A stretch of 64,000 nt of DNA. Origin: Terriglobus albidus (GTDB taxonomy: Bacteria; Acidobacteriota; Terriglobia; Terriglobales; Acidobacteriaceae). The position numbers were made by a program, and so were the translations under genes. This document shows, piece by piece, positions 42,853 through 64,000 of this stretch. The notes beneath the pieces were generated by a model that saw nothing but the letters and a program-made list of their open reading frames with translations, did not search any database and was not told where the DNA came from. Location: the NCBI RefSeq assembly GCF_008000815.1, contig NZ_CP042806.1, positions 5,952,001-6,016,000 of the forward strand, read 5' to 3'. How positions within the stretch are numbered: the first letter of the stretch is position 1; each line of letters begins with the position of its first letter.

Positions 42853-43090
42853 GATTCCTCGCCCCGTGGCCGTCGACCCGGAACTGAATGCGCGCTTCGC
42901 CGAAGAAGCTGCACAGATGCATCGCTGCCAGAACCGCACCGTACGGCCCTACGTCGCTCACACACCCACACCACCGCCCACCTTCTCTGACCGTGTCACG
43001 GCCGAGATGCAACAGGCCGGTCTTCTTCCCTCCGGCGTCAACAGGAGTGCCCCGCATGGCAAAGCCCGGACGTCCATCCAAGTACAGTGA
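42791..43090 (+). CDS. Small zinc-ribbon-like phage protein
   Basis: 99 residues from the ATG at 42791 (GGAG ~12 bp upstream). Residues ~13-50 contain LRCKRCRQVIEI and, 30 residues on, QMHRCQN, a C-x2-C ... H-x-C arrangement that could bind zinc. The C-terminal part is Pro/Arg-rich and overlaps the terminase start by 35 bp. Small zinc-ribbon proteins often precede phage packaging genes. Function unknown. Confidence 0.5.
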   Translation: MLERMDTLQALRCKRCRQVIEIPRPVAVDPELNARFAEEAAQMHRCQNRTVRPYVAHTPTPPPTFSDRVTAEMQQAGLLPSGVNRSAPHGKARTSIQVQ

Positions 43091-46541: not shown

Positions 46542-46673
46542 GGAAGAAAATCCATCACACGACGTGCGGCTCTATGGCTGGCAATCTTGCTTTGCGCAGG
46601 CTCTTCGGCCTATGGCCAAACGATGTACCCGACGATCAACACACGTTCGATGATCTGTAGCCCTCCCGGATAA
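46542..46673 (+). pseudogene. Remnant of the 5' end of a tail-fibre-like gene
   Basis: The frame encodes RRAALWLAILLCAGSSAYGQ and then TMYPTINTRSMICSPPG and a stop, with no usable start codon. It resembles the start of the next gene, whose signal peptide is followed by AQAIYPPINTPVF. It appears to be a truncated, start-less duplicate of that gene's 5' end. The frame closes at 46671-46673, 18 bp before the intact gene. Confidence 0.5.
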
Positions 46674-46691
46674 TCCCAGAAAGGACAACTT

Positions 46692-49028: not shown

Positions 49029-52000
49029 ATGCGTAAGCTGTTTACGTTATGCGCCCTGCTGGGCGCTTTTTGTGCTGCTCACGGCCAGATCAACCTGGCC
49101 GGTCACTCGGTGGTCCCGTCGACGACTGACTCGGACCACGGTCTTTCCTCTGTTGTTATCAGTGATGCTGACTGTAATGTCACATCCCCCAGCGGATGCA
49201 CCGTCCCGAGCGGAACCGGTCCCTATCGCGGCACCTTCATCATCACAAGCTCTGTCGCCTTGACCGCCGATCGTTGCTTGATTCTGCCGCTGTCTCCCGG
49301 CCGCGCTGTCTACGTGAAGAACTCAACATCAGGCGGCAAGCAGGTGTGCATCAAGGGAGCCACTGGCGGAGCCGCATATTTCGCCAATGGACAGAGCGGA
49401 GTGGCGTTCTCGGATGGAACGAACTATAACGTCATCTCGGCGAACGGGAGTAGCACTGCGGCGCTTGGCCTGGTCATCGCTGACGGCGTGATCTATACAA
49501 CCATCCACGCTGCCTACACTGCGGCCTGCGGCGCCGTCCCCAATCTGAATGTCTATGTGCCGGCAAACTCGACGGTAACAGACACCATTGGCAGCACACC
49601 GAATTACATGATCTCAACCTGCACTGCCCAGGTCACGGATGATCGATCGGGCACCACGTATGGCAGTCGAGGCAACAATCTCTTCCAGGCAACAACACCG
49701 CGTAAGGATTACTTCCCGCGCGAAGGGACGCTCAAGTCGCACTGGATCGACTTGCTCAACAACGGCGTTAATCCAGCGACCACCGGCATTCCTTCTGTAG
49801 TGCAGTGGCCGGTCGCATGGCACGGCGATTCGGTGAGCGGTTTTGCAACCTTTTACACCCTCATGCAGTCGTCCTTCGGATTGGGTGTCGCGGGTTTTTA
49901 TAGCAGTGCGGCGCATGTAGGAACCGGTAACAACGAAGGTTTTTATGGGCTTGGACAAGGCTCAATCAATCTCACTTCCCTAACGAGCGGGACCGCTACT
50001 CTTTCCCCCAATGGCGCAGCAGACCCAACTACCCCGAACGGTTCTTCCCTCATTTTGGGGTCGTCAAGCACTACCGGAACCATGACGTTCTTTTTGGTGG
50101 CATCGCAGCAAGGCACTGAAACGCGCTACCGCAACATGCAGCAGGCTTCAGTCTTCTACCTGTGCGACGGCAGGCCTGCAACTATAAACGTGCAGACCTC
50201 TCCGGATGGCATCACCTATTACAACGAGACCATTACTAGCGCACAGCCAAACACATGCCCTTTGACGGGCGGCGTTGTAGCTGTCGGTGTCCAAGGCGTA
50301 GGAAGCGGATCCGGCTGCGGAACGCTGACGCTTGGGGCGACTGGAGGAACCGGATTTGTCGGTACAGCATTTCCCAATTCTCTAGGTCAGATCGATCACG
50401 TCGTAGTGAACAGCGCCGGTAGCGGCTACAACCCATACACTTCGACCATCACGGTCACATCTGGGTCCTGCTCAGGCTCACTGCCAACATGGGGAAACTT
50501 GCTCACCTCGAATATCAGCATCCAGCAGGCCACGATCACGCATGACGGCATCGGCATCGTGAAAGTAACGAACTCCGGAGATTCTGTAAAGATCGTAGGT
50601 TTTGGTTTGTACAACCCGAATCAAAGCGGCATGGTTCTCGAGGATATGGGATTTGGAGGCAGCAGCATTGATAGCTTGTTTGCTGCCCCGGACTCTTATA
50701 CGACTCCCTGGTACAGCGGAATGCCGGTACCCGATACCGTTTACATTCAATTCCTCGACAACAAAATCGTAGGCGGCAATTCTCTCAACGCGTGGTTCCA
50801 AAGGGACTATGACCGAACTGCAGCGCAGCACGCGACAAAAGCCGCGATCTTCGGAACCTTATCGGCCTGTAACGCTGCTGGCTACGGATGGGATACCCAG
50901 TGCCGCCCTTACAACCCGGATATGGTTTGGGTCTCCGCCTATCAAGGCGGAAACACCACGACGCTGAGCGATGGTAATGGCGGCGGCGACCTACTGGTGA
51001 TGCAGCAGGTCAACCAGATCAATCGTGCGGGAGGGAATGCTATTTATGTCGATGACACTAACTCTCAACCGAACGGTCAAGACAGCTTCCGCCGCGTGAT
51101 GTTTGGTCAAGCCGACACAACTCATCAAACGCCCGGTGGTCGCGCCCTACAGAACACGATCACGCAGCAGATTGGCGGGATACCGCAGCAGGACCTCTAT
51201 GCAAGTAAAGCATTCACCGCTGTTCACGTCGGTCAAGGCTCTCTGACGGCCCCGAGTATTTCCTTTGTTCGAACGGGTGGAGAAGGCTTTATCTACAACA
51301 GTGGGTACCGACAGATTATGGCGCTCGGCGGACTTGTCGGCGAAGGATCAATTGCCATTACGCCCGGAACCTATGCAAATCCCACGACCTATATTCCAGT
51401 GACCGGCTCAACGTCCGCGACATACATGATTTGTGCAGCGGGGGCTACGAATCTTCAGCCTATTGGGTGCACTCCAGCAGTGTCCATTACCACTGGACCA
51501 ACAACCCTGAGTTCAACCAACTATGTTCAGGTTTGCTTGGCGCGGCCGATTTTGGGAGCCGCTTATTATGCGCTAATCCGCACTGCGGGTTACAGCGGCC
51601 CGATCGTCGTTTACAGCACCGTTTTGTATACAAATGCCAATACCCCGCCTTGCATGAACGACACTGGCCAGACTGGTTCGACCTATACCGCATCTCAATG
51701 GAATCCTTCCGGATATTTGCGTATAAACTCGCCGACTGCTCCGGTTGATTTTGGCGGTTGGGCGTCAGTCCGTACGGCAGACAGCTTGTATGACCTCCAA
51801 TTTGGAGAAGGAAGCAATGCTGGTCAAACAGGTGGTTTCGGCATTGCGATGCGTACGGTAGCAAATGTCAATAACTTCTGCCGCTTCTCTCTTGGCGTTA
51901 GTACGAGTTGGGCGGGAGCACTAGGATGCGCTGGAACCTATGCAAACGCTCCTTTCAACTTTCTCAATCCTATTTACATCAATCCAGGAAGTACGACAGC

Positions 52001-52679
52001 ACCCAATATAGACATTGCCACAGCATCAGGATTTATGACTGGCACCGTGCCGATGTTCAGAATAAGAGCAAATAGCAGCGCTGGAGCCTGCCCTTCTGGC
52101 GGCTGCGGTCTGTTTGTGAGCTCAGACGGAGCCTTTGCTGGATACCTAGCACTATTCGACTTCAACGGCGCACGGAAGTTCGGCATCAAGCCCTCTGGAC
52201 TTGAGTTCTTCGGCAACACGCTCTACCCGATCACAGCCGTTCCAGGTACGGGAGTGAACCTGCTGCGCTCCATCGGTGCCCTCAACAACGGAGACCTTGC
52301 CGCGTTCGATGCAAACAACAATGCGGTTGATAGCGGTCTGGCAATCTCGAACACCTGCCAGAGCAGCGGTTCTGGCTGCAGCTTCTATCACGATCCGGTG
52401 CACTACGGCGCAACCATCACTTCAGGGACAACTTTCAACGCCGGCACGTGCGGAACGGCAGGAGGAGGGAGTGCTCCTTCATGGTGGACCGGCAGCTCGA
52501 CCGTTACGTTCAACTGGATTACTGATCCAGGTTCCGCTGGTGGGTTAGGTCTCGTCGCCAACGCCATCAACACCGGCAGCGCACCCGGTTGGACGATATG
52601 CAACTTTACAGCCTCGAATATCACAACCACAGCAACCATCAACTACAGCGTGACTGGCTTCTACGTTCCAGTTCCATAA
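49029..52679 (+). CDS. Large secreted tailspike-like protein with candidate SGNH esterase domain
   Basis: 1216 residues; AAGGAG precedes the ATG and residues 1-19 (MRKLFTLCALLGAFCAAHG) are a signal peptide. Residues ~30-160 are a fibre-type beta-domain. At 264-271 the sequence AWHGDSVSG has the GDS motif of SGNH hydrolases (Ser268). Residues ~290-570 look like an inserted carbohydrate-binding-type beta-sandwich. VWVSAYQGGNTTT could supply the glycine/asparagine blocks, and ADTTHQTPGGRAL holds the D696-x-x-H699 pair. The last ~500 residues form another fibre-like region ending in a beta-rich tip with paired Cys. A de-acetylating tailspike is the best guess; the catalytic assignment rests only on motifs. 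Confidence 0.65.
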   Translation: MRKLFTLCALLGAFCAAHGQINLAGHSVVPSTTDSDHGLSSVVISDADCNVTSPSGCTVPSGTGPYRGTFIITSSVALTADRCLILPLSPGRAVYVKNSTSGGKQVCIKGATGGAAYFANGQSGVAFSDGTNYNVISANGSSTAALGLVIADGVIYTTIHAAYTAACGAVPNLNVYVPANSTVTDTIGSTPNYMISTCTAQVTDDRSGTTYGSRGNNLFQATTPRKDYFPREGTLKSHWIDLLNNGVNPATTGIPSVVQWPVAWHGDSVSGFATFYTLMQSSFGLGVAGFYSSAAHVGTGNNEGFYGLGQGSINLTSLTSGTATLSPNGAADPTTPNGSSLILGSSSTTGTMTFFLVASQQGTETRYRNMQQASVFYLCDGRPATINVQTSPDGITYYNETITSAQPNTCPLTGGVVAVGVQGVGSGSGCGTLTLGATGGTGFVGTAFPNSLGQIDHVVVNSAGSGYNPYTSTITVTSGSCSGSLPTWGNLLTSNISIQQATITHDGIGIVKVTNSGDSVKIVGFGLYNPNQSGMVLEDMGFGGSSIDSLFAAPDSYTTPWYSGMPVPDTVYIQFLDNKIVGGNSLNAWFQRDYDRTAAQHATKAAIFGTLSACNAAGYGWDTQCRPYNPDMVWVSAYQGGNTTTLSDGNGGGDLLVMQQVNQINRAGGNAIYVDDTNSQPNGQDSFRRVMFGQADTTHQTPGGRALQNTITQQIGGIPQQDLYASKAFTAVHVGQGSLTAPSISFVRTGGEGFIYNSGYRQIMALGGLVGEGSIAITPGTYANPTTYIPVTGSTSATYMICAAGATNLQPIGCTPAVSITTGPTTLSSTNYVQVCLARPILGAAYYALIRTAGYSGPIVVYSTVLYTNANTPPCMNDTGQTGSTYTASQWNPSGYLRINSPTAPVDFGGWASVRTADSLYDLQFGEGSNAGQTGGFGIAMRTVANVNNFCRFSLGVSTSWAGALGCAGTYANAPFNFLNPIYINPGSTTAPNIDIATASGFMTGTVPMFRIRANSSAGACPSGGCGLFVSSDGAFAGYLALFDFNGARKFGIKPSGLEFFGNTLYPITAVPGTGVNLLRSIGALNNGDLAAFDANNNAVDSGLAISNTCQSSGSGCSFYHDPVHYGATITSGTTFNAGTCGTAGGGSAPSWWTGSSTVTFNWITDPGSAGGLGLVANAINTGSAPGWTICNFTASNITTTATINYSVTGFYVPVP

Positions 52680-52751: not shown

Positions 52752-53003
52752 ATGGAAATAGATCGGGAGGTACTTGGAGACATGATCGAAGCCCGCACCG
52801 CCGCTGCAATTCAGAAATACGACCAGACGATCATCATTCCGCGTGAAAACGCGGTGCAGGCCACCAGCCAGGCAACGCTCGAAGAGCTTGCACGGAAGGT
52901 TGGCATTCTCTGGGACCATCTGCAAAGCGCGAAGGGCGCGTGGTGGATGATCGGCGCGCTCGGCACGGCTGCGGTCATCCTCGCGAATCACTTTTGGAAA
53001 TGA
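52752..53003 (+). CDS. Holin-like small membrane protein
   Basis: 83 residues from the ATG at 52752 (GAGG before it). The N-terminal ~60 residues are hydrophilic and helical. One membrane segment lies near the C-terminus (GAWWMIGALGTAAVILANHF) and ends in a basic residue. This is the layout of XhlA-type or class III-like lysis accessory proteins. The stop overlaps the lysozyme start (ATGA), so the two genes are translationally coupled, as in phage lysis cassettes. It may form the holes that release the lysozyme, or anchor it. Confidence 0.7.
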   Translation: MEIDREVLGDMIEARTAAAIQKYDQTIIIPRENAVQATSQATLEELARKVGILWDHLQSAKGAWWMIGALGTAAVILANHFWK

Positions 53004-53509
53004 CAGCGATAGAACTGATTGAGCCCGTCGAGGGCCGCGTCCGCTGGATGTACCTCGACACAGAGGGCCTTGTAACCGCGGGAGTAGGCGAATGCCTGGA
53101 AACTGCGGCCGAGGCCTGTGCTTTCTTCGGGCGCGATGTGACAGCCGATTATCACCACGTGGCTGCGATGCCAAAAGGCATGGCTGCCAGCCGATACTGG
53201 TATGCCGGTTGCCCGACCCTCACAGACGCCCAGATCGATGCGCGCCGTGATCGTTCGATAGCCAATGCGGAAGGCGATGTCAGGAAGCTGGTGCCGTCAT
53301 TCCCTACTCTCACCGCGACACGTCAGGCGGTCTTGATCGACATGGCCTTCAACCTGGGACTCAAACGCCTCGCCGGATTCAGGAAGACGCTTGCGCTGCT
53401 TGCTGCCGGTGACTTCGCTGCAGCCGCAAATGAAATGCTCGATTCCGCGTGGGCGAGGGAAGTTCCTAAGAGGGCGAAGCGAGACTCCGACCTCATGCGG
53501 GCCGGATAA
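53000..53509 (+). CDS. Phage lysozyme, T4-type (GH24)
   Basis: 169 residues starting at the ATG overlapping the holin stop; the frame's earlier opening at 52940 is rejected. The catalytic triad of T4 lysozyme is present with the right spacing: in VEGRVRWMYLDTEGLVTAGV the Glu is followed 9 residues later by Asp and 6 more by Thr (E-x8-D-x5-T). DMAFNLGL and AWAREVPKRAKRDSDLMRAG are further family signatures. It cleaves the MurNAc-GlcNAc bond of peptidoglycan for host lysis. There is no signal peptide, so it needs a holin. The length fits GH24. Confidence 0.92.
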   Translation: MTAIELIEPVEGRVRWMYLDTEGLVTAGVGECLETAAEACAFFGRDVTADYHHVAAMPKGMAASRYWYAGCPTLTDAQIDARRDRSIANAEGDVRKLVPSFPTLTATRQAVLIDMAFNLGLKRLAGFRKTLALLAAGDFAAAANEMLDSAWAREVPKRAKRDSDLMRAG

Positions 53510-53521
53510 CAAAGGAGAACC

Positions 53522-53632
53522 ATGTCACAAATGTGCGGCTCTGGCTACATGGTCTTGGTGCGACTTTTATCGCCGCGCCGCAACCTCACTCGCAATGATC
53601 CTGGTGGACAGCGTGGAACAATTTCATCCTGA
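53522..53632 (+). pseudogene. Frameshifted 5' fragment of the holin/lipoprotein gene (copy 1)
   Basis: AAAGGAGAACC plus the following ATG matches the starts of the genes at 56509 and 58975 base for base over most of ~105 bp. One A is missing at codon 4 and one base is missing near 53575, and the homology ends near 53632 (GGAACAATTTC). It directly follows the lysozyme, which is presumably the original place of the module. It cannot make the protein. Confidence 0.8.
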
Positions 53633-53761
53633 GAATATTTACTGGATGAGACACGCCCTAGGTTACTTTGGTAAGCGGTTGACGGATTTTTACTATTCTG
53701 TTGAATCTCGTCGCTATACTAGCCACACATCATAAATCTTATTTCCGCAGCGGAGCCGTAC

Positions 53762-54814
53762 GTGGATATACCTGCTCAGGTGCTCACCAGGAAGGCGATT
53801 GTTCTGGCCTGTGCTTACTGTCTAATCGCATTTGCGACAGTAGTTGCCGTCATACACTTTTCTTTACCAGACAGATTGAAGCTCTACGCCGACATGCGTA
53901 GCGAGAAGATAGCATTGATGGAGAGCTCGCAGGCCTGTTCTGCGGCATTCGGTTCAAGTCACATCCATTATGGATTCGACCCACGCGCCTTCGATGCAAC
54001 GCTCGACAACACAATGGCAACTCACACTATCAATTTAGGTGTGGGAGGGGGCTCGCAGGTCGAACAGCGAGTCCTTGCGATGAAATTCGCCCGAAAACTC
54101 GACGCACATAGCGCACAAAATTGTTTTCTGCTGCTGGAACTCGACGCTGGAGTCAATTTCAATTTCAGATTCCTTGTGCATCCACGAACAATCAACGTCT
54201 ATGACGCGGATGCTGTCCGGTTCGTCAAATCATTGACACCGCTTTCGCTCGGTTTACGGCGAGTCGTAGGCCGAATGGGATATGCTCTGCTGGCCTCTGT
54301 CATGTACTACAGCAACACGGGAATGGAGAGCAATCGAATCTTTCCCCCAGACCTGAACGCACAAGCCATTCAGGATGAGAGCCGAAACGATAGGCGTGGC
54401 CTGCTTACCCCCATTGAACCATTGAGCAAACTCGATCAGGTGAGACGCGAGCTTACATCAACTGAGCCTCTTCACAAGGAAGTATTTATCCTACCTCAGG
54501 GGGTCCCGCAGTTAGCGGACGAGATCGCCTCCCAGGCGCATGTGCCAAATCTGCATATAGCTTATGTTGTTTTTCCCCGTGCCCACGATGTGAGTAGCCA
54601 GTCGGAGTTTCCGGACTCTATCCCTACGCGGTGCGGGGTGGTTCCGATATTCAATATGGCACAGCCTGCCAAATATCCCGACATATACGTTGTACAAAAT
54701 TGGGCTGATGATGCGCATTTGAGTGAGGCTGGTGCATCTATCACTTCTCGTCATCTCGCGGAACAGTTAAACGCCTGGTTTACCGTCCATCCTCAGCCGA
54801 TGGAGTGTCACTAA
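53762..54814 (+). CDS. SGNH-hydrolase-like protein partner of the MBOAT (DltD/AlgX-like)
   Basis: 350 residues from a GTG. One N-terminal membrane segment (~12-32: AIVLACAYCLIAFATVVAVI), then an exported domain. GSSHIHYGFDP (~63-73) supplies the serine block and DDAHLSEAGA near the C-terminus the Asp/His pair, the arrangement of DltD/AlgX/PatB-like acyl-handling proteins. These pass or transfer acyl groups exported by an MBOAT to cell-surface polymers. The stop overlaps the MBOAT start (TAATG), so they act together. Base composition is lower in GC than in the flanks, indicating recent acquisition. Confidence 0.75.
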   Translation: MDIPAQVLTRKAIVLACAYCLIAFATVVAVIHFSLPDRLKLYADMRSEKIALMESSQACSAAFGSSHIHYGFDPRAFDATLDNTMATHTINLGVGGGSQVEQRVLAMKFARKLDAHSAQNCFLLLELDAGVNFNFRFLVHPRTINVYDADAVRFVKSLTPLSLGLRRVVGRMGYALLASVMYYSNTGMESNRIFPPDLNAQAIQDESRNDRRGLLTPIEPLSKLDQVRRELTSTEPLHKEVFILPQGVPQLADEIASQAHVPNLHIAYVVFPRAHDVSSQSEFPDSIPTRCGVVPIFNMAQPAKYPDIYVVQNWADDAHLSEAGASITSRHLAEQLNAWFTVHPQPMECH

Positions 54815-56223
54815 TGCTATTCGTCGAGCCTCGTTTTTTCCTCTTCTTTGGGATTGTCCTCACAACCTATTGGTCCCTTCGTTCCAACGAGCAGCGCAAA
54901 TGGCTTCTTCTCTTCGCTAGCTATTTCTTTTATGGGTGCTGGGACTGGCGTTTTGCCATCATGCTCGCCATACTCTCCGCAGCAGACTACTTCTTTGCTT
55001 TGCGCCTGACGCAGACCGAGAATCAGAAATTCCGCAAAATTTACGTCGTCGCTAGTGTGGCAATGAACCTCAGCGTGCTGGCTTTTTTCAAGTACTTTCA
55101 CTTTTTCGTCAGCTCAGCGGTTGCTCTTGCGACCGCGATGAAATTTCATCTCTCAGAACCAACTATAAAAATCATTCTTCCGGTAGGCGTCAGCTTTTTC
55201 ACTTTTCAGTCCCTTAGCTACACCATTGATGTCTATCGCCGAGAGATCCCCCCAGCTTCGAGCCTTCGCGAATACCTTACGTTCGCAGCGTTCTTCCCCC
55301 AGCTCGTTGCCGGTCCGATTGTCCGCCCAAGCTATTTCCTTCCACAGCTGGCGGAGAAACGTCATATCTCTCTTCAAGAAGTGAAACAGATGCTCTATCT
55401 CTTTCTTCTTGGCTACATCAAGAAGAGCTGTATTGCCGACAACATCTCCCCTTACGTCGACAAGGTGTTCCTCCATCCAGCGAATTACAGTTCTATTGCC
55501 TCGATAACAGCAGTCTGGCTCTACGCAACGCAAATTTTCTGCGATTTCTCAGGCTATTCGGACATGGCTATCGCAGTTGCCGGACTGATGGGATATAAAC
55601 TCGTTCTAAATTTTGACGCTCCGTATTTGGCAGTATCCATTCAAGACTTCTGGCGGCGTTGGCATATATCCCTTTCGTCTTGGATTCGCGACTACATCTA
55701 TATCTCTCTCGGAGGAAGCCGAGGCAGGACCCGCTGGTATACCTATCGCAACCTATTGCTGACAATGCTCGCAGGCGGCCTCTGGCATGGTCCTGCGTGG
55801 ACGTTCGTCGCGTGGGGAGGAATGCACGGTGCAGCGCAGGTAGCCCAGGCGGAGTTCAAACGGGCACTCCCTCCGAAGCCATCTCAGGAACCATGGAGAA
55901 AATTGTTCTCCTGGTTTATTACTCTTCAATTCGTGTGCCTGACTTGGATCTTTTTCCGTGCACCAAATTTCGCATCAGGCTGGATCGTATTCCGCCACTA
56001 CCTATTCTTATCTCCCAGCGGATCGTCTACGCTGCCGATATGGCTTATCTTATTGCCTCCAACACTATTGCTCGGCCAGCTCCTCATGCGACGTATAGAT
56101 CTCCAACATCATCTATGCGCCGCAACATTGCCGCGGTTCGCTGCAGCATACGGAGCGATATGGGCCATCGCGATCTCGCTCCTGCCTCTTGGCTATCGCC
56201 CGTTCATCTACTTTCAATTTTAG
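54814..56223 (+). CDS. MBOAT-family O-acyltransferase (AlgI-like)
   Basis: 469 residues from the ATG at 54814, which overlaps the upstream stop by one base and has GGAG 8 bp before it. About 11 membrane segments. MBOAT hallmarks: ILPVGVSFFTFQSLSYTIDV, PQLVAGPIVRPSYFLPQL, FWRRWHISLSSWIRDYIYIS and GGLWHGPAWTFVAWGGMHG with the invariant catalytic His. It moves an acyl (usually acetyl) group across the inner membrane for attachment to an exopolysaccharide or O-antigen by the SGNH partner upstream. In phages and prophages such pairs act as lysogenic-conversion genes that alter the surface receptor. Confidence 0.9.
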   Translation: MLFVEPRFFLFFGIVLTTYWSLRSNEQRKWLLLFASYFFYGCWDWRFAIMLAILSAADYFFALRLTQTENQKFRKIYVVASVAMNLSVLAFFKYFHFFVSSAVALATAMKFHLSEPTIKIILPVGVSFFTFQSLSYTIDVYRREIPPASSLREYLTFAAFFPQLVAGPIVRPSYFLPQLAEKRHISLQEVKQMLYLFLLGYIKKSCIADNISPYVDKVFLHPANYSSIASITAVWLYATQIFCDFSGYSDMAIAVAGLMGYKLVLNFDAPYLAVSIQDFWRRWHISLSSWIRDYIYISLGGSRGRTRWYTYRNLLLTMLAGGLWHGPAWTFVAWGGMHGAAQVAQAEFKRALPPKPSQEPWRKLFSWFITLQFVCLTWIFFRAPNFASGWIVFRHYLFLSPSGSSTLPIWLILLPPTLLLGQLLMRRIDLQHHLCAATLPRFAAAYGAIWAIAISLLPLGYRPFIYFQF

Positions 56224-56350
56224 AGCTGCTGCAACGCGAGGGTGATCGCACGCACAACATCCATCTTCGCGGGTTTATTTTCGCCGCGTCCTGCGCATCT
56301 GGCCCCTTTACTTCTTCGCATTATTTTTCGCGCGCCTGTTGGAACTAATA

Positions 56351-56371
56351 AATTCGAGCATTGCTCGAATT
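56351..56371. other. Perfect palindrome with adjacent hairpin downstream of the MBOAT gene
   Basis: AATTCGAGCA and its complement TGCTCGAATT flank a single T, and GCGAAC-AGA-GTTCGC (56376-56390) follows within 5 bp. There is no T-run, so it is not a typical terminator. The rest of 56224-56508 holds no supported gene. Confidence 0.5.
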
Positions 56372-56508
56372 GTTAGCGAACAGAGTTCGCTGGGAGCGCC
56401 GATCAATGCCGCGAAGCTTTCCGCTTTTTTCGCAGTGAACGAAGGCATCTGCTTCTCTACCCAACTCACTCGACACTTCCACCTTCCTCAGTAAATCAAG
56501 GAGAACCT

Positions 56509-57063
56509 ATGTCAAAAAACATGCGGCTTTGGCTGCACGGCCTTGGTGCGGCCTTTATCGGCGGTGCTGCCACTTCTCTCGCCACGATCCTGGTGGACTC
56601 TGAAAAATTCAATATCGACACGCTCCTGGGACTACAGCATCTTGCAGTTGTCGCCATTGTTGCCGGTATCGTCAGTGCTGCCGGATATCTGAAGCAAAGC
56701 CCGCTTCCTGCCGTCGAGGAGAGCCGAACGGCAGGCTCGAAACTTGCAGCACTTCTTGTCGCCTCTCTACTACTGGGATCATTCGGATTGGCCGGCTGCA
56801 ACGACTTTGAGCGCAAGACATTTCAAACACTGTCCGCCTCCAAAACCCTTATCGACAAGGCCCAGATCGACTATGAGACGGGTACGCTGCCTCACACGCA
56901 AGCGTCCTACGACGCGATTAACAAAGCAAAGGATGCGCAAACCGCAGCCGTTCGGGGCTTCCAGTTGTACGAAGCGGCAAAGCTGGCCGTGAATCAGAAC
57001 AGCGATGTGACGGTGCAGATAGCTGCATTGAATAGCGCACTGTCCAACCTGGGCCGGTCGTAG
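56509..57063 (+). CDS. Holin-like/lipoprotein fusion, copy 2 (C-terminus frameshifted)
   Basis: 184 residues; AAGGAG precedes the ATG. Residues ~5-60 have two membrane segments (WLHGLGAAFIGGAATSLATI; HLAVVAIVAGIVSAAGYL), as in small phage holins. Then a charged link (PAVEESRTAGSK) leads into a second lipoprotein-type signal, LAALLVASLLLGSFGLAGC, whose LAGC is a perfect lipobox. The last ~80 residues are helical (FERKTFQTLSASKTLIDKAQ). No internal start codon exists that would release the lipoprotein part alone. One G missing from the GGG run near 57053 truncates the end (NLGRS-stop); restored, the stop would overlap the next gene as ATGA. Confidence 0.7.
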   Translation: MSKNMRLWLHGLGAAFIGGAATSLATILVDSEKFNIDTLLGLQHLAVVAIVAGIVSAAGYLKQSPLPAVEESRTAGSKLAALLVASLLLGSFGLAGCNDFERKTFQTLSASKTLIDKAQIDYETGTLPHTQASYDAINKAKDAQTAAVRGFQLYEAAKLAVNQNSDVTVQIAALNSALSNLGRS

Positions 57064-57097
57064 CGGGAGTCAAACACATCTATCTCGGAGCGAGTCA

Positions 57098-57406
57098 ATG
57101 AGCACTGAAACAACAGTTGCAGCCATCATCAGTACGACCGAGGAGATCCAACGCGATACGGTGATCGTGCTTGAGATCATCAGGACTACCTATCCGCAGG
57201 TTTCGGATGAAGCGACCGTCGCTGAAAGTATCCTGACGATACTGACGGCACTCGTTACCAAAGCGCTGGCAGCGTATGCTGCCGCCTCGGGTACGCCTAT
57301 TACACCTGCGAGTATCGAGAGCCTTATGCCAAATCCATCGGCGTTGCAATTACAGATGCTCGGAGCTTTCTGTTGGCGGAACCTCGGATCGTCCAGCGTT
57401 CCTTGA
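57098..57406 (+). CDS. Small helical protein, copy 2 (3' end replaced)
   Basis: 102 residues. Residues 1-83 match the 88-residue protein at 59566 closely (AAIISTTEEIQRDTVIVLEI; ESILTILTALVTKALAAYAA). After MPNPSAL the homology stops and the sequence continues as QLQMLGAFCWRNLGSSSVP, which is the antisense of the acyltransferase gene that starts here. The protein therefore has a chimaeric tail, probably non-functional. It has no signal peptide. Family not recognised. Confidence 0.6.
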   Translation: MSTETTVAAIISTTEEIQRDTVIVLEIIRTTYPQVSDEATVAESILTILTALVTKALAAYAAASGTPITPASIESLMPNPSALQLQMLGAFCWRNLGSSSVP

Positions 57407-58625
57407 GATTGAGAATGGGACTTTCGAGGAAGCGGTAGCTCAGCCAGGCCAGCACTATCGTGGCAAGCAGAGCCAGAAGAGCAGTGAGGCATCGGGTTTC
57501 CAGAGACCTTGCGTACAGGTCGTGAGCAGTACTGGCATTCCGGACGGGAATGAGGCGGTCGGCCAGCGCGGCGTAGGCGTTGTGCGGGATGTCATGGAAG
57601 ACATAGAGGCCATAGGTGATCCGCCCGAGGGCCCGAAGAGCACGGACATTCATGAGTCGGTGGACAACGCACTGAGGCTGGATGGCGACGAGGATCATCG
57701 ATCCCGCAATAAAATCGATGGCCGTCAGACCCCAGGTGAAATGCCAAGCCGGATATTGATAGTGGTGGCGCCAGATATGGCCATACGGACTGAAGACACC
57801 CCAGAGAGCCAGAAGCGCCAGAAGCGCGGGAAAGAGATACCTGGACAGGGTGAGCAGGGCTTGTTTCCAGCGGCTGCGGATAGCGAGGGCAAGGAGCCCG
57901 CCGAAAAGAAGGGCGTCGATGCGGAATGGAGTGGCGCGGTAGAGAACCTCGTTGTCGAGCATCCATCCAGGCAGAAAGGCGTGACCAGCAAGCCGCAAAG
58001 ACAGTGCAACAGGGACGGATAAGGCGCAGATGGAAGCGAGCTTCCTGCGGTCGCAGATCCAGAACACAAGCCATGGCCAGACGAGATAGAACTGCTCTTC
58101 GATGCAGAGCGACCAGAAGTGGCCAAGATTGAGTTGCAGGGAGTGATGTCCGATGAAGCCGCGCAACTGGAAGTCTCCCAATGCCTGCACCGGATCGCCG
58201 TATTGCGAAGGTCCGAGGAATCGCGCGAAGTTGCCGAGGTAGGCCGGCCACACAATCCAGGTTTTGCTCCAGTTCCAGTGGGCGACCGGTTGAGCTAGCA
58301 GGAGAACGAGCATGACCGAGTAGTAAAGGGGAAAGATGCGCAGGGAGCGGCGCACGTAAAAGTTACGAACCCGGTGTGTGTCGTTGCGGCTGTCGTACAG
58401 GATTCCCGTGATGAGAAATCCGGAAAGGACGAAGAAAAGATCGACTCCCGACCAGCCCCATGGAATCGACAGATAATGCTGAGCGAACACCATGAGGAAG
58501 GCGACGGTCCGGATGCCATCGAGCGCGGGATAGAAGATCCGGTTTTCTGGCAGAGTTATATCGGTGTTGCCGGCGACAACAGGGACGGGGGTCTGCAGAG
58601 GGATTGTCGTGGGACTCACCAGCAC
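57324..58625 (-). CDS. OafA/YrhL-type acyltransferase (acyltransferase 3 family)
   Basis: 433 residues with about 10 membrane segments. Acyltransferase-3 signatures: FYPALDGIRTVAFLMVFAQH with the catalytic-type His, WGWSGVDLFFVLSGFLITGI, FYVRRSLRIFPLYYSVML and GHFWSLCIEEQFYLVWPWLV. It transfers acetyl or other short acyl groups to sugars of surface polysaccharides. It is the only large minus-strand gene in the block. Its last ~9 codons and stop are encoded by the antisense strand of the neighbouring phage gene (from ~57350 down), so its original end was lost on insertion. The serotype-conversion role is inferred. Confidence 0.88.
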   Translation of the reverse strand: MLVSPTTIPLQTPVPVVAGNTDITLPENRIFYPALDGIRTVAFLMVFAQHYLSIPWGWSGVDLFFVLSGFLITGILYDSRNDTHRVRNFYVRRSLRIFPLYYSVMLVLLLAQPVAHWNWSKTWIVWPAYLGNFARFLGPSQYGDPVQALGDFQLRGFIGHHSLQLNLGHFWSLCIEEQFYLVWPWLVFWICDRRKLASICALSVPVALSLRLAGHAFLPGWMLDNEVLYRATPFRIDALLFGGLLALAIRSRWKQALLTLSRYLFPALLALLALWGVFSPYGHIWRHHYQYPAWHFTWGLTAIDFIAGSMILVAIQPQCVVHRLMNVRALRALGRITYGLYVFHDIPHNAYAALADRLIPVRNASTAHDLYARSLETRCLTALLALLATIVLAWLSYRFLESPILNLKERWTIRGSANRKLRASVIATPMDLA

Positions 58626-58974
58626 AGTCTAACGCCTCCGTCGATTTTCCTGCCTGCCTTTATTCATCCCGTCTTCCATGCATAAAAGCGTCTCTGACAG
58701 CTTTCGCAGCGATAGGGCCGCAGGAACAGAAAACGCGGAAGCAGGTCAAAGAGGCGCGGGTGCGATTCACGCACCGCGTGGGATGACAAGCATTGGGGAC
58801 ACCGATACGGAAAGAGCGACATGGCAGTTTTTGACTCTCGGCGCCTTGCGGGAAAAGAAAACAGATTTTTGCTTTAGTTTGTGCACTGTAGCAGCTGGCG
58901 AGATCACATACCGCGAATTATAACCGTGGTCTCACGGCAATTACTTCCATCTCGCAGTAAATCAAGGAGACAAT
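58626..58974. other. 349-bp intergenic gap
   Basis: It separates the divergent acyltransferase and the third module copy. Only a short hairpin (GGTGCGATTCACGCACC, ~58759-58775) and a region of mixed composition are seen. The last ~30 bp (CAGTAAATCAAGGAGA) match the leader of copy 2, so the duplicated unit starts about 30 bp before the ATG. Confidence 0.5.
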
Positions 58975-59565
58975 ATGCCTCAGAATGTGCGGCTTTGGCT
59001 GCATGGCCTCGGTGCGGCCTTTATCGGCGGCGCTGCCACTTCTCTCGCCACCATCCTGGTGGACTCTGAAAAATTCAATATCGACACGCTCCTGGGACTA
59101 CAGCATCTTGCAGTTGTCGCCATTGTTGCCGGTATCGTCAGTGCTGCCGGATATCTGAAGCAGAGCCCACTTCCTCCCGTCGAGGAGAGCAGAACGCCAG
59201 GCTCGAAACTTGCAGCGCTCCTTGTCGCCTCTCTGCTACTGGGCTCATTCGGATTGACAGGCTGCAACGACTTTGAGCGCAAGACATTTCAAACGCTGTC
59301 GGCCTCCAAAGCCCTTATCGATCAAGCCCAGATCGACTATGAGACAGGTACGCTGCCTCACACGCAAGCGTCCTACGACGCGATCTACAAAGCAAAGAAC
59401 GCGCAAACCGCGGCGGTCCGGGCTTTTCAGGTGTACGAAGCAGCGAAGCTGACCGTGGATCAGAACAGCGATGTGACGGTACAGATAACTGCCTTGAATG
59501 GCGCTTTGTCCAACCTGGGGCCGGCGGTAGTAAGCGTCAAGCAGATCTATCTCGGAGGACAGTAA
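58975..59565 (+). CDS. Holin-like/lipoprotein fusion, copy 3 (intact)
   Basis: 196 residues; ATCAAGGAGAC before the ATG. The same layout as copy 2: two N-terminal membrane segments, a charged link, a lipoprotein-type signal with the lipobox LTGC (…LLLGSFGLTGC), then a helical tail ending NLGPAVVSVKQIYLGGQ. The stop codon TAA abuts the ATG of the next gene. If processed, the C-terminal half would be a lipoprotein with the N-terminus at the Cys, while the first half remains a two-pass membrane protein. Its function could combine a holin with a spanin-like lipoprotein. This exact fusion is not one I recognise. Confidence 0.75.
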   Translation: MPQNVRLWLHGLGAAFIGGAATSLATILVDSEKFNIDTLLGLQHLAVVAIVAGIVSAAGYLKQSPLPPVEESRTPGSKLAALLVASLLLGSFGLTGCNDFERKTFQTLSASKALIDQAQIDYETGTLPHTQASYDAIYKAKNAQTAAVRAFQVYEAAKLTVDQNSDVTVQITALNGALSNLGPAVVSVKQIYLGGQ

Positions 59566-59832
59566 ATGAGCAACGATACACCTGTGGCAGCCATCATCAG
59601 CACAACCGAGGAGATCCAACGCGACGCCGCGATCGTGCTTGAGATCATCAAGACTACCTATCCGCAGATTTCGGATGAAGCGGCTGTCGCTGAAAGCATC
59701 CTGACGATACTGGCGACACTGGTCACCAAGGCGCTGACAGCGTATGCTGCTGCCTCGGGCATACCCATTACGCCGGCGAACATCGCGAACCTTATGCCGA
59801 ACCCAAAGGCATTGACCCCGCCCAGCAGCTAG
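59566..59832 (+). CDS. Small helical protein, copy 3 (intact)
   Basis: 88 residues, directly abutting the upstream gene. Mostly helix: residues 1-30 (AAIISTTEEIQRDAAIVLEI), then ESILTILATLVTKALTAYAA, a moderately hydrophobic helix, and an ordered end (PITPANIANLMPNPKALTPP). No signal peptide, no metal-binding residues. It always accompanies the holin/lipoprotein fusion, so it is likely a functional partner, for example an inhibitor or stabiliser. Family not recognised. Confidence 0.65.
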   Translation: MSNDTPVAAIISTTEEIQRDAAIVLEIIKTTYPQISDEAAVAESILTILATLVTKALTAYAAASGIPITPANIANLMPNPKALTPPSS

Positions 59833-60024: not shown

Positions 60025-61845
60025 CTATGCCGGGATGCGGCCGGCTTCACGATAGAACTCGGCAGCTGCGCCTTCGATCTCACGCAGCAGCCGCCGCGTT
60101 CGAACCAGCTCACGTTTGCGATGGCGGCCGATCTCGAACTGTGCAGCGAAGTCCATCTGCTGCATGTTCGTCAGCTCGACAGAGACCATACCGCGCAAGC
60201 GCTGAAACTCGGCTGCGACAACCTCGGCAGCGTCAGCCTGAAGCATCAGGGTATGCAGTCGCGATGTTGCCCCATTGATCTTCCGCAGAGCGCTGCCGAG
60301 TGCATCGCTGGTGCGTACCGGCCAGAGCTGGTCGAAGACAAACCACATCACCCCGATGCCCAAAGCGATGCCGATGACGCGATCGCGCGCAGGGTTGAGC
60401 TGAGTCGGCGGACCGAAGCCCTGCAGCGTTGAGAGGAAAAAAGCAAAGCCGATCTGTACGCCGACATACCCGATACGAGGGCTACGCATCACCCAACCGG
60501 AGAGAAAGACTACCGGCGCAAGCACTGCCACGAGTGACGTCACTGAGTCCATATTTGGAAACAACAGTGAGACTGTCGCGATGCCAAGGACCCCCCCGAT
60601 CACTGCTCCAGCAAAGCGGTAAAGCTGCTTCTGCTTCATTGCACCTGTCGAGTTCAGCCCTGTAAAAAGCACCGTCACGACGCACGTCAGGATTCCCGGC
60701 CATGCCACGGCGTTATAGAGGATATAGCAGGTGAGTACAGCGAGTGTGAGCTTGAGCGCATAGATTACCTGCTCGCTCTGCTCGAAGACTCCTGGCTGAA
60801 AGAATCGGAAACCGTTCGAGCGATGACGCTCCAAAGCCTGACGGCCTGCAACATCCACCGCAGCCGCTGAGACCTCGCGATATTGCTGCAACTCGCGGAA
60901 GATCTCTTCGAAGGGTCCGCGCGGCGCACCTGCGAGCGCTACATGGTCGACACGCTGCCCGGCTGCGGCCAGATCGCACAGTGCCGCCAGCGTGCGGGCG
61001 CCGGCTTTCAGTTCATCGCTGGCATCCGCTGTGAACGATGTAAATCCAAAGACCACGCTCTTACGAATCACACGTGTCAGAATACCGATGCGGTACTGTA
61101 GACCAACCGGCATCCGCGCTGCCTCTTCCGATCCCTGCAAACGGTCGTACAGTTCGTGCAGGCGGAAATCACCAGCGTGTTCAAGCTGCAACAGGTCCCG
61201 ATGCGCGCGGCGGAGCGCCGGCGGCCGCGTGTCAGGGTCATCCTGCGCAAGGGCGGCAAAGAATCGGGCTAGCGCGGACAGCCTGCGATGCAGTTCTTGA
61301 TTGAGCTCTTCGGCGGGGTGACGCGAGGCGAATAGATATTCCACCGCCGTGGCGCATGCCAGCACCAGAGCGAGCGAAGCTACCTGGAACAAGCAGTACG
61401 AGACACCGGCACTTGCAGTGTGATGGCCGTCCCAGTAGGCGAGATCGACAAATCCGTAGAAGCCGAAGATCGTCCACAGCATCGGCAGGGTACTTGCCGC
61501 CATGCAGAAGGCGGAGACGAAGACACAGAGCGCAACACCGAGGAAGCGGGCCACTTCGTTACCATCGGTCAACTGCACCCACACGATCGATGCAATTGCC
61601 GCCAGAGCGCAGCCGGCAAGAATCTGCAACCCGGCCCGCAATGTCAGACCAGGGCGCTCGCGCTGCATCAGCAACAGCAGCGCCGCCGAGAGCGAGAAGC
61701 CGGGGAGCTGCAGCGTCATGGCGATCACCACGGCAAGCACGATCCCCAGCGTGTCGCGCAGAGCGCCTGCCGTTCTACCGGGATACGGCGAAAGCTCGTC
61801 CTGCAACAACTCCAGCATGGTGCCGCGATGGAAACGCGTCGACAT
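60025..61845 (-). CDS. mdtO: FUSC-family efflux component (MdtO-like)
   Basis: 606 residues with two sets of membrane helices (residues ~25-170 and ~370-520) separated by a cytoplasmic helical region. This is the fusaric-acid-resistance / aromatic-acid-exporter fold. Recognisable parts: TLGIVLAVVIAMTLQLPGFS and AVLTCYILYNAVAWPGILTC in the second set. It should act as the inner-membrane pump of a tripartite system. Its ATG at 61845 lies 2 bp beyond the HlyD-like stop, so they are one operon. Gene order TolC-like, YtcA, HlyD-like, FUSC matches E. coli mdtP/ytcA/mdtN/mdtO components; the symbol is by analogy. Confidence 0.85.
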   Translation of the reverse strand: MSTRFHRGTMLELLQDELSPYPGRTAGALRDTLGIVLAVVIAMTLQLPGFSLSAALLLLMQRERPGLTLRAGLQILAGCALAAIASIVWVQLTDGNEVARFLGVALCVFVSAFCMAASTLPMLWTIFGFYGFVDLAYWDGHHTASAGVSYCLFQVASLALVLACATAVEYLFASRHPAEELNQELHRRLSALARFFAALAQDDPDTRPPALRRAHRDLLQLEHAGDFRLHELYDRLQGSEEAARMPVGLQYRIGILTRVIRKSVVFGFTSFTADASDELKAGARTLAALCDLAAAGQRVDHVALAGAPRGPFEEIFRELQQYREVSAAAVDVAGRQALERHRSNGFRFFQPGVFEQSEQVIYALKLTLAVLTCYILYNAVAWPGILTCVVTVLFTGLNSTGAMKQKQLYRFAGAVIGGVLGIATVSLLFPNMDSVTSLVAVLAPVVFLSGWVMRSPRIGYVGVQIGFAFFLSTLQGFGPPTQLNPARDRVIGIALGIGVMWFVFDQLWPVRTSDALGSALRKINGATSRLHTLMLQADAAEVVAAEFQRLRGMVSVELTNMQQMDFAAQFEIGRHRKRELVRTRRLLREIEGAAAEFYREAGRIPA

Positions 61846-61847
61846 AA

Positions 61848-63035
61848 CTAGCGCACCACGGTGATCGCGGTCGCACCCACGCGGAAGAGGTCGGGATTTG
61901 GATCCGTCACGCGGATGCGAACCGGGAAACGTGCCGACAGATGAACCCAGTTCAAGGTACGATCCACGTTAGGAAATCCGTTCGTGACGGCGCCATCTTC
62001 CGGAAAGACGCCTCGGCCGACGCTGTCGACAACACCGTCAAAGCGTTGACTGGGATGTTCCATCAGGTACACCTCGACATGATCCCCTGGCCGGATATGT
62101 TTCAGTTTTGATTCGCGATAGTTGGCTAACACCCACCAGTTGCCCGTATCGACCAGCGTGAACATTGATGTTCCCGGATGCGCATATGCACCCTCAGAGA
62201 TGTTCATGTTGACGGCATAGCCATCGAAAGGGGCGCGCACCTGGCACCACTCCAGGTTCAGCTCGGCCTGATGTACTTTGGCAGCACGGCTGGGTCTCTG
62301 TGCCTCCAGCGTTTCCAGCGTATCGACGGTATGAACGGCCTCGCCAAGTTTTGCCTGCGAGACCTGCAGACCAGCCTGGGCTGCCTGCTTCGAAGCCATC
62401 GCCATGGATTCCTGCGCCTGTGCCTGCAAAAGCTGCGACGAGGCCTGATGCACCGACTCCTTCGCCACTCGCAGAGCTGTCTCCGCCTGGTCTACCTGCT
62501 GGGTAGTGACATAGTGCTTGGCGAGGAGCGGGGCGATGCGGTCGTAGTCGTTCTGCGCGAACTTCATTTGTGCATCGGCAGCAGCCTGCGCCGCCCGGGC
62601 GCGTTCCACAGAGGCTGTTGCCGCCTGATAACTTGCCTGGGCTGCGCTGATACCGCTCTGCGAATTCAGGATACCGGCACGTGCGGCAACAACCCCGCTC
62701 TGCTCAGTAGCAATGCGGCGGCGTTCGTCGTTGATCTGACCTTCCAGCATCGCCTGGTCGGCGCGCGCCTGCTCCAGGGCATATTCATACGGGCGAGGAT
62801 CGATCTCGAAGAGCAGGTCGCCCTTATGGACGACCTGATTATCCTTCACCAGCAGTTTGGTCAGGCGGCCTTCGACTTCAGGAGCAAAGGCGATGGCGTT
62901 CGCCCGTACCGTAGCATCGTCGGTGCGGGGATGGCGGTCAACCTGCATCACAGCGATCGCAAGCGCAATCACAGCTATTGCCACGATGCCAATGCCGATC
63001 CGGCGGCCGAGAGTTTGTCTGTCGTTGAGATTCAT
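61848..63035 (-). CDS. mdtN: HlyD-family periplasmic adaptor (MdtN/EmrA-like)
   Basis: 395 residues. One N-terminal membrane segment (IGIVAIAVIALAIAVMQVD). The lipoyl/barrel-sandwich half-motif VEGRLTKLLVKDNQVVHKGD starts at ~50, then a long coiled-coil hairpin (~95-245, many Ala and Gln, e.g. QAAQAGLQVSQAKLGEAV) with the second lipoyl half at VRAPFDGYAVNMNISEGAYA, and a beta-barrel (WWVLANYRESKLKHIRPGD). The C-terminus has the VGATAITVVR end typical of the EmrA/AaeA group. It bridges the FUSC pump and the TolC-like channel. Confidence 0.92.
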   Translation of the reverse strand: MNLNDRQTLGRRIGIGIVAIAVIALAIAVMQVDRHPRTDDATVRANAIAFAPEVEGRLTKLLVKDNQVVHKGDLLFEIDPRPYEYALEQARADQAMLEGQINDERRRIATEQSGVVAARAGILNSQSGISAAQASYQAATASVERARAAQAAADAQMKFAQNDYDRIAPLLAKHYVTTQQVDQAETALRVAKESVHQASSQLLQAQAQESMAMASKQAAQAGLQVSQAKLGEAVHTVDTLETLEAQRPSRAAKVHQAELNLEWCQVRAPFDGYAVNMNISEGAYAHPGTSMFTLVDTGNWWVLANYRESKLKHIRPGDHVEVYLMEHPSQRFDGVVDSVGRGVFPEDGAVTNGFPNVDRTLNWVHLSARFPVRIRVTDPNPDLFRVGATAITVVR

Positions 63036-63050
63036 AATGCAAGTCCTTGT

Positions 63051-63323
63051 TTAGGCAAAGAAGCAAAGCCACAGCAGGCAGGTAAGCAACACCACCAATG
63101 CGGGATGAATGATGGCTGGGTGTCCGACCGAGTGCAGAAGACCCTGACGCCGCAACAGCAGATGCGCCAGCGCCGTAAGCGCAACACCGAGCGCGAGCGA
63201 GATCATCCAGCCGGGAAAGTACGACCCGACAATCTCAACGTTGGGATTACGTGCGCAGCCGGCTGTCAGCACGAGAGTCAGGAGCATAAGTACGGACCTG
63301 AAGAACGCGTTCACGGTTTCCAT
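63051..63323 (-). CDS. ytcA: YtcA-like small lipoprotein
   Basis: 90 residues. The N-terminus is a lipoprotein signal ending in the lipobox LTAGC (~18-22). The remainder has two hydrophobic segments (FPGWMISLALGVALTALAHL and HPALVVLLTCLLWLCFF) with an Arg-rich hinge (LLLRRQG). This is the layout of YtcA, encoded beside mdtNOP in E. coli. Its start overlaps the TolC-like stop by 13 bp and the HlyD-like start follows 15 bp after it, so it belongs to the efflux operon. Confidence 0.85.
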   Translation of the reverse strand: METVNAFFRSVLMLLTLVLTAGCARNPNVEIVGSYFPGWMISLALGVALTALAHLLLRRQGLLHSVGHPAIIHPALVVLLTCLLWLCFFA

Positions 63324-64000
63324 CCTGTTGTAGAAGCATTACCCGAAGGCAGATTGCCGATTGCATAGCTAAGCGCCGCAGCGCTTTGCTGCACGCGGGC
63401 GCGGGCGCGCACATCCTCAAGCCGCGCCTGAGCCAGTTGCCGCTCTGCCTGCACGACATCGACGAGCGACCGCACGCCATATCGGAAGGCATCAAGCGAT
63501 GACTCGTAGGAGACCGTAGAAGACGTAAGAAAGCTCTGTGACGAGCGCTCCTGCTCGATAGCGGTCCTGTAGTCCACATACGACTCCCATACCTGGCGAG
63601 TGACCGCGTCCTGGGTTGCACGTTGTTCTTCGGCAGCGGCCTTCTGTTCAGCCAGTGCAGCGGTTACCTCATGTCGACGCGCCCCGTTGAAGACCTCCCA
63701 GCGAAGCTGGACCGCAGCCGACCAGGTGGATACACTCGCTGGACCAAGCTGTCCGTAGTCCGCTGTCGGCCACATGTTGGTCTGTCCGCCGGTTGCAACC
63801 AGGCCTACCCCCGGCAGATATTTCGCGCGAGCCGATTTGACGGCATCGTTGGACCGCTTGAGATCCTGCATACGCGCCAGCAGGTCGGGCCGATTCTTCC
63901 AGGCCTTATCGATCAACTCTTCCACGGGCGTATCGAAGGCCTCCGGAGATGCGGAGCCGACCGCCACGATCCCGATCGTGGCGGTCGGCTCAACACCAAT
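63311..64000 (-). CDS. mdtP: TolC-like outer-membrane efflux protein, 5' end outside window
   Basis: The frame is open to the right edge (230 codons visible, C-terminal half only). The start-like GTG at 63967 is internal. The outer-membrane efflux domain shows the helical-barrel repeat style: LIDKAWKNRPDLLARMQDLK, AVKSARAKYLPGVGLVATGG, then RWEVFNGARRHEVTAALAEQ, the usual end of the first repeat and start of the tunnel helices, and VVQAERQLAQARLEDVRARA. It should form the outer-membrane tunnel of the tripartite pump encoded downstream. Confidence 0.9.
   Translation of the reverse strand: MGVEPTATIGIVAVGSASPEAFDTPVEELIDKAWKNRPDLLARMQDLKRSNDAVKSARAKYLPGVGLVATGGQTNMWPTADYGQLGPASVSTWSAAVQLRWEVFNGARRHEVTAALAEQKAAAEEQRATQDAVTRQVWESYVDYRTAIEQERSSQSFLTSSTVSYESSLDAFRYGVRSLVDVVQAERQLAQARLEDVRARARVQQSAAALSYAIGNLPSGNASTTGWKP

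Follow-up and report, generated by a model that had tools for sequence, protein, structure and literature searches.

A 64,000-nucleotide stretch of the Terriglobus albidus chromosome (hereafter the window; G000:C1:5952001-6016000 in the single contig that forms the 6.4-Mb genome) contains a decayed prophage, at ~42.1 to 59.9 kb, in which a putative lysis module stands three times behind a phage lysozyme, with open acyltransferase frames between the copies. The same remnant is found in T. albidus DSM 26559 with a different acyltransferase. We favour, with moderate confidence, a reading in which the locus is a variable acyltransferase slot in a decayed phage end, whose cassettes have been exchanged or stacked by recombination at the lysis module.

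Three module copies and the genes between them

The module consists of a gene for a 196-residue two-helix/lipoprotein and a gene for an 88-residue partner. The lysozyme, the module copies and the genes lodged between them are as follows.

53000-53509 (+): phage lysozyme, bounding the slot on its left side; PF00959, E=2.6e-7 for the extended frame 52940-53509
53522-53625 (+): copy 1, frameshifted stub of the predicted holin/lipoprotein gene, ~100 bp, directly adjoining the lysozyme
53762-54814 (+): SGNH-like protein with a membrane anchor, leading the predicted acylation pair
54805-56223 (+): MBOAT O-acyltransferase, open frame; PF03062, E=1.6e-28
56246-56491 (+): probable AT3 remnant frame (RxxR block) before copy 2, with ~20-40 codons recognisable
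56481-56508 (+): the 28 nt before copy 2, common to DSM 26559 and partly to copy 3; copy 1 has the ribosome-binding part only
56509-57063 (+): copy 2, predicted holin/lipoprotein gene, 184 instead of 196 residues
57098-57349 (+): copy 2, 88-residue partner, 3' end lost
57324-58625 (-): AT3 acyltransferase (OafA-type, AT3-only), open frame; PF01757, E=5.1e-20
58975-59565 (+): copy 3, predicted holin/lipoprotein gene, intact (196 residues)
59566-59832 (+): copy 3, 88-residue partner, intact

This succession of a fragment, a damaged and an intact copy, with acylation genes in the gaps, had been proposed in the original prediction, made from the letters of the window, and is confirmed by repeats, by alignment and by a DNA search of the 6.4-Mb genome, which found the module at these three places and nowhere else. 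Alignment of the stub begins at the ATG at 53522, requires two one-base gaps and fades past ~100 bp; three-copy repeat families of 46 and 38 nt locate copy 1 at 53530-53609, with 79-85% identity to the other copies. In copy 2, a one-base shift lies near the end of the holin/lipoprotein gene, and the partner gene enters unrelated sequence after ~83 codons. Copies 2 and 3 match at 93% over 300 nt (56489-56788 versus 58955-59254) and at 84% over 254 nt (57093-57346 versus 59561-59814).

Searches up to E=0.1 placed neither module gene in any family of Pfam or PHROG, known holin and spanin families included. The 196-residue protein has two hydrophobic stretches and a third one terminating at Cys97, which we take to be lipobox-like. 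The place beside the lysozyme, the membrane helices and the lipobox-like stretch are holin/spanin-like features, and the label 'lysis module' is supported by this place and anatomy rather than by membership of a known family.

The cargo is as predicted, namely an SGNH-like and an MBOAT gene in gap 1 and an OafA-type acyltransferase in gap 2. With 100.4 bits against the curated PF03062 cut-off of 27, and 72.2 bits against the PF01757 cut-off of 31, the MBOAT and AT3 genes belong to their families, and the AT3 protein also matches PHROG 6705 'O-antigen acetylase' (E=1.1e-35). Two corrections are needed: the OafA-type gene lies on the minus strand and overlaps the damaged 88-residue gene of copy 2 with its last codons, and gap 1 also holds the probable AT3 remnant, which had been missed. 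This remnant frame scores 20.2 bits with an AT3 profile built from 17 proteins, or 17.9 bits once the window's own AT3 row is left out, whereas the next unrelated frame in the window reaches 5.8 bits and, of 3,128 control frames, the top one outside the AT3 family 7.7 bits. Over 42 nt, it also matches the AT3 gene of the window at 81%. The frame thus probably holds what is left of a further AT3 gene.

Two motifs of the SGNH-like protein, FG-x-S and, close to the C-terminus, D-x-x-H, are invariant across six homologues, and we take them to be of the SGNH type. The assignment derives from the motifs and is tentative; the window protein has no Pfam or PHROG match, a PDB sequence search was empty up to E=1, one of the six homologues has a weak unrelated Pfam match (E=0.076), and a single-sequence fold model reached a predicted local distance difference test score of only 38. 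Relatives of the gene occur in five other genomes (398 searched, including the window's own), and in all five an MBOAT gene with 68-72% identity to that of the window follows directly downstream. The pair stands out compositionally: G+C content is 0.515 in the SGNH-like gene and 0.504 in the MBOAT gene, compared with 0.579 +/- 0.019 (lowest 0.514) in 128 overlapping 1.4-kb segments outside the prophage, all of which lie above the MBOAT gene.

The best relatives of the window AT3 gene, at 53-57% identity, belong to three other genera, and the cargo is acidobacterial in kind. Upstream of this gene, a 52-residue frame at 58664-58822 (-) contains CPxC...CxxC pairs, zinc-ribbon-like by eye, and may have arrived together with it.

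The same locus in T. albidus DSM 26559

Among 19 genomes of the genus, the module is present in two, the window's own and that of T. albidus DSM 26559 (G128; contig NZ_JAGTAS010000019.1, locus stretch L018). On either side of the remnant, synteny extends for tens of kilobases, and the remnant therefore occupies the same chromosomal place in the two genomes. DNA homology ends at window position 53070, leaving ~70 nt of lysozyme, and restarts 28 nt before a lysis module that is single and intact in DSM 26559. The 1.65-kb slot contains a gene for a 389-residue AT3 protein (L018:11053-12222; PF01757, E=6.8e-23, 81.7 bits). With 25% identity over 171 residues between this protein and the window's AT3 protein, the two genes are ruled out as alleles of one gene.

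The slot therefore varies, and its content is biased towards acyltransferases in both genomes. A gene set that differs at one place in related phages defines a moron, and the window and DSM 26559, two genomes in all, differ in this way. The related-genome comparison suggested in the original prediction, at the junction of lysozyme and module, thus turned up a different acylation gene in the sole related genome with the locus, the outcome that the prediction had named as favouring a cargo hot spot.

Could common acyltransferases have produced a meaningless pattern by chance? AT3 relatives at E<=1e-40 are found in 57 of 300 family genomes, the window's own included, yet PF01757 has only 5 matches in the 6.4 Mb of the window's genome and 12 in the 6.1 Mb of DSM 26559 (that in the slot included), PF03062 has 2 and 0, respectively, and the slot is filled in both. 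With 12 matches in 6.1 Mb, ~0.003 AT3 genes would be expected in a given 1.65-kb slot of DSM 26559. In the window's own genome, two of the 7 AT3/MBOAT matches lie within ~6.3 kb (Poisson ~2e-5, calculated post hoc). We therefore give chance hardly any credence. Elsewhere in the DSM 26559 genome, three AT3 genes follow one another (L147; G128:C19:163700-168300).

The remainder of the prophage to the left of the slot includes three features that bear on the comparison.

42888-43757 (+): terminase small subunit-like gene in the left part of the prophage; PF20901, E=3.8e-41
49029-52679 (+): long protein, a presumed tail fibre by position and length only
52752-53003 (+): 83-residue protein overlapping the lysozyme start; 92% amino acid identity to DSM 26559, with a ratio of nonsynonymous to synonymous substitution rates (dN/dS) of 0.05

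The first ~92 residues of the terminase-like gene are also present in DSM 26559, at the identical place, and several genes with no assignment lie between it and the presumed tail fibre. The latter has no Pfam or PHROG match, and only pieces of it occur in DSM 26559 (L018), at 45-74% amino acid identity. These pieces are split by ~245 bp (L018:13859-14102) with 95% identity to L037:5274-5518 in the right flank of the window's genome, and this stretch looks like a mobile repeat. In DSM 26559, the counterpart of window 46640-47166 (tailA), L018:16533-17054, has the opposite orientation to the flanks and directly borders the terminase piece, an inversion with deletion in a decaying prophage. The window contains no tRNA gene as an integration site, and neither an integrase nor an attachment site of the prophage was identified.

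In the left flank, one gene has close relatives only in the two T. albidus genomes, with two weaker ones elsewhere. A FUSC-HlyD-TolC-like efflux set (TolC assigned by reading) occupies 60025-63967, separating the end of the prophage from an aldehyde dehydrogenase gene, and it is missing at the corresponding place in DSM 26559. Window positions 3184-3493 and 39453-39765 contain dispersed ~90-bp repeats in both orientations, many more copies of which occur in the flanks of both genomes.

Origin of the stacked copies

We propose that the locus would be the right-hand end of a temperate-phage genome that decayed in an acidobacterium. A slot between the tail fibre/lysozyme genes and the holin/lipoprotein genes would have taken up surface-modifying acyltransferases as lysogenic-conversion morons, with different ones inserted more than once, probably out of the acidobacterial gene pool. 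Lysis modules of related phages could then recombine homologously, the module acting as a shared arm, and cassettes of acyltransferase plus lysis module would be exchanged or stacked. In the window, the outcome would be three module copies flanking the SGNH-MBOAT pair (with the AT3 remnant) and the AT3 gene. The phage genes would have decayed while the acyltransferase frames stayed open, and their products would probably acylate a surface polysaccharide and thereby alter phage adsorption or surface properties. Serotype conversion, as the original prediction had it, is a function suggested by the protein families. More tentatively, the module could be a recombination anchor, with phages of this lineage stacking or exchanging such cassettes by homologous recombination at the holin/lipoprotein gene, and a dead prophage whose acyltransferases the host retains would become a lasting, growing surface-acylation island.

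The proposal draws on the different AT3 gene in the slot of DSM 26559, set against its low chance expectation, and on the low G+C content of the SGNH-MBOAT pair. The sequences in front of the copies are consistent with such movement. Ahead of the ribosome-binding site, copies 2 and 3 and the DSM 26559 copy have sequence in common, 28 nt of it in copy 2 and DSM 26559 and less in copy 3, and copy 1, which adjoins the lysozyme end, has only the ribosome-binding part in common with them; further upstream, copies 2, 3 and that of DSM 26559 all differ. We read copy 1 as probably marking the original position, and the others as having moved together with different upstream sequence.

An alternative is that an old tandem duplication of the module was followed by piecemeal insertion of chromosomal acyltransferases into a neutral, dead prophage, with no phage cassette involved. 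The 185 variable sites include 179 informative ones, with copy 2 agreeing with copy 3 at 75, copy 2 with DSM 26559 at 57 and copy 3 with DSM 26559 at 47. Copies 2 and 3 are thus nearest each other overall, as duplication predicts, and a section of their interior is almost identical. The outer ends behave differently: copy 2 agrees with DSM 26559 at 14 of 23 informative sites in the first 100 nt (P=0.003), and copy 3 does so at 11 of 22 in the last 100 nt (P=0.017), in end bins that were picked after the data had been seen. The longest run of sites shared by copies 2 and 3 is 9 (P=0.022). Ancestor-like outer ends with alike interiors would result from recombinational insertion within the module and subsequent gene conversion, which also yields alike interiors; duplication with conversion predicts much the same pattern. 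The copy comparison therefore fits repeated acquisition and duplication plus insertion alike and does not separate them.

Duplication followed by insertion also accords with the chromosomal look of the SGNH-MBOAT relatives and with the end of the AT3 gene. Alignments of the AT3 protein with its nine best relatives end at residue 416-424 of 433, leaving the last 9-17 residues outside; with this and the overlap with the damaged 88-residue gene, the end of the AT3 gene looks like a non-homologous junction. This explanation leaves the acyltransferase-only filling of the slot in both genomes unexplained, and selection on the copies is unlike that on a free decaying duplicate. For copy 2 versus copy 3, dN/dS is 0.14 in the 196-residue gene and 0.23 in the 88-residue gene; relative to DSM 26559, the values are 0.19 and 0.11, respectively. 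The terminase end is laxer (0.39, and 0.49 in a neighbouring frame). The low ratios of the module genes suggest that most divergence accrued while the genes worked, with the damage to copy 2 probably coming late, and the value of 0.14 fits two constrained copies better than one old decaying duplicate. We regard duplication plus insertion as a somewhat unlikely origin of the locus. Repeated acquisition, as originally proposed, gains from this constraint on separate copies, whereas the use of decay order as a time series lacks support.

Synonymous divergence (dS) between the window and DSM 26559 varies along the prophage: 0.15 in the terminase, 0.28-0.39 in the 196-residue gene, 0.62 in tailA, 0.64 in the 83-residue gene, 0.95-0.99 in the 88-residue gene and about 2 in the tail fibre. 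In the flanks, 16 of 18 frames were matched, 14 of them at 0.32-0.66, one at 1.08 and one doubtful frame at 0.145. Because dS varies in this way, recombination with other phages or the arrival of two related phages at one site is possible. In the latter case, two related phages, each with its own acyltransferase at the lysis end, would have entered a shared site independently, and the extra copies would stem from a second phage that integrated into the first. The dS extremes in the tail pieces (~2), the 88-residue gene (~0.95) and the terminase (0.15), outside the range of most flank frames, agree with this scenario, but tailA (0.62) and the 83-residue gene (0.64) lie within the host range, which fits one shared ancestor, and no integrase or attachment site speaks for a site of this kind. 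Independent lysogeny thus appears improbable.

Several observations weigh against the exchange or stacking of cassettes by phages. Only one other genome has the locus, which makes the swap a single case (n=1); the closest pair overall is that of copies 2 and 3 (75 of 179 sites); and the G+C content of the AT3 gene, 0.578, is host-like. A scan of the cargo found no sigma-70-like promoter sites where 4.4 were expected (terminator-like sites numbered 9, with 6.1 expected). The relatives of the SGNH-MBOAT pair look chromosomal by their neighbours in all five genomes: none of the window phage genes used as queries, module and lysozyme included, has a match in these stretches, and an ABC-F-type gene (named by reading) adjoins the pair in three of them. 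The module was unmatched in 50,697 phage records, and a pattern search for close relatives confirmed none of it in viral contigs. 'Phage ends' as carriers, as the original prediction had put it, consequently found no backing, since neither the phage records nor the viral contigs yielded a phage with cargo and module. The same type of pattern search confirmed no close relatives of the window AT3 or the DSM 26559 AT3 in viral contigs.

The module beyond the two genomes adds to these counterpoints. Relatives of the 196-residue protein occur in 17 of 398 family genomes including the window's own, that is, in 16 others and in 15 besides DSM 26559. The parts of the module are separate in some: a short two-helix protein stands without the lipoprotein part in G019, G089 and G111, and in G023 a separate lipoprotein is followed by the partner (by reading, as for the other split modules). 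One observation here speaks in favour of the proposed origin: when a neighbouring protein, chosen by eye, was scanned at 8 of the 15 loci, 7 of the 8 proved to have a lysozyme domain or another peptidoglycan-related one (PF00959, GH108/PG_binding_3 or Tlde1); in L019 and L027 this neighbour is 2.7-2.8 kb off, and the neighbour in L023 is without such a domain. The surroundings in these 15 further genomes were scanned in six frames with our own AT3 and MBOAT profiles, both of which find the window genes; the AT3 profile also finds the remnant and the DSM 26559 gene. AT3 or MBOAT genes were detected in none of the 15 stretches (best scores 4.8 and 4.2 bits, respectively), an absence that is incomplete because several stretches are short (L210 3.0 kb, L024 9.2 kb and L026, which ends at the match, 9.7 kb). 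Nor were they detected in 80 viral contigs with lysozyme relatives (best scores 10.2 bits for AT3 and 8.3 bits for MBOAT), which were the top 80 among 129 and had lengths of 2.7-12.5 kb. Given both scans, the slot so far belongs to this prophage, in two genomes, and not to the module or the lysozyme at large, and the module as a general cargo hot spot in the family is not borne out. The hot-spot interpretation is therefore partly supported: it holds for a variable, acyltransferase-biased slot in two genomes and fails as a general feature of the module (0/15, 0/80).

Comparison with known systems

Phage-borne surface conversion is best known from enterobacteria and Pseudomonas, and oac of the temperate phage Sf6 is an O-antigen acetylase gene. 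In a tblastn search, 59 phage records matched the AT3 protein and 50 the MBOAT protein; seven, opened by choice, were inspected over ~10-kb stretches. In line with the proposed origin, six of them carry an annotated lysis gene no more than ~4.5 kb from the acyltransferase match (D3, Fyn8, JBD44, SPC32H, Yong-M2-251 and BritBrat, the last at the very edge of the stretch), and Faja shows none. According to the annotations, D3 orf28, SPC32H oac and the Fyn8 gene likewise encode AT3-family acyltransferases in a late region beside tail/spike and endolysin/holin genes, the acetylase of D3 and SPC32H having the tail/spike gene on one side and the endolysin on the other. Unlike these phage O-antigen acetylase loci, the window has an AT3-only protein in a dead prophage with repeated lysis modules around it.

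The MBOAT gene has a likeness in Pseudomonas phage JBD44, where such a gene adjoins the endolysin, and in IMG/VR, where a same-strand frame of 359-509 residues follows the MBOAT relative in 17 of 17 viral contigs (by reading). In the window, by contrast, the SGNH-like gene precedes the MBOAT gene, and the relatives are chromosomal-looking. One viral contig (L063:3195-8643) carries two tandem MBOAT genes with a partner-sized gene after each, a possible parallel to stacking. An MBOAT protein with a separate SGNH-type partner also recalls AlgI/AlgX- and PatA/PatB-type systems, as described in excerpts of PMC9558356, from which the window differs in that its SGNH identity comes from motifs alone.

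Excerpts of the epsilon34 paper describe an 'ant moron', in that P22-like phages carry different morons at one position of the late operon (PMC2629481). The window slot resembles this arrangement of one late-operon position with varying non-essential gene sets, but it lies behind the lysozyme and combines acyltransferases with a repeated lysis module. The locus is not described in the excerpts of PMC11924767, PMC5900883, PMC9558356, PMC2629481 and PMC8787464.

If our reading is correct, phage-borne surface conversion would reach the abundant, little-studied soil Acidobacteriota, and repeated lysis modules, acting as recombination arms, would provide a route by which such genes accumulate in a dead prophage and are transferred to the host. 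Temperate phages (D3, JBD44, SPC32H) are already known to carry surface acyltransferases next to their tail-fibre and lysis genes; what is new here is that the lysis modules are stacked, that the setting is acidobacterial and that the cargo has survived although the prophage is dead.

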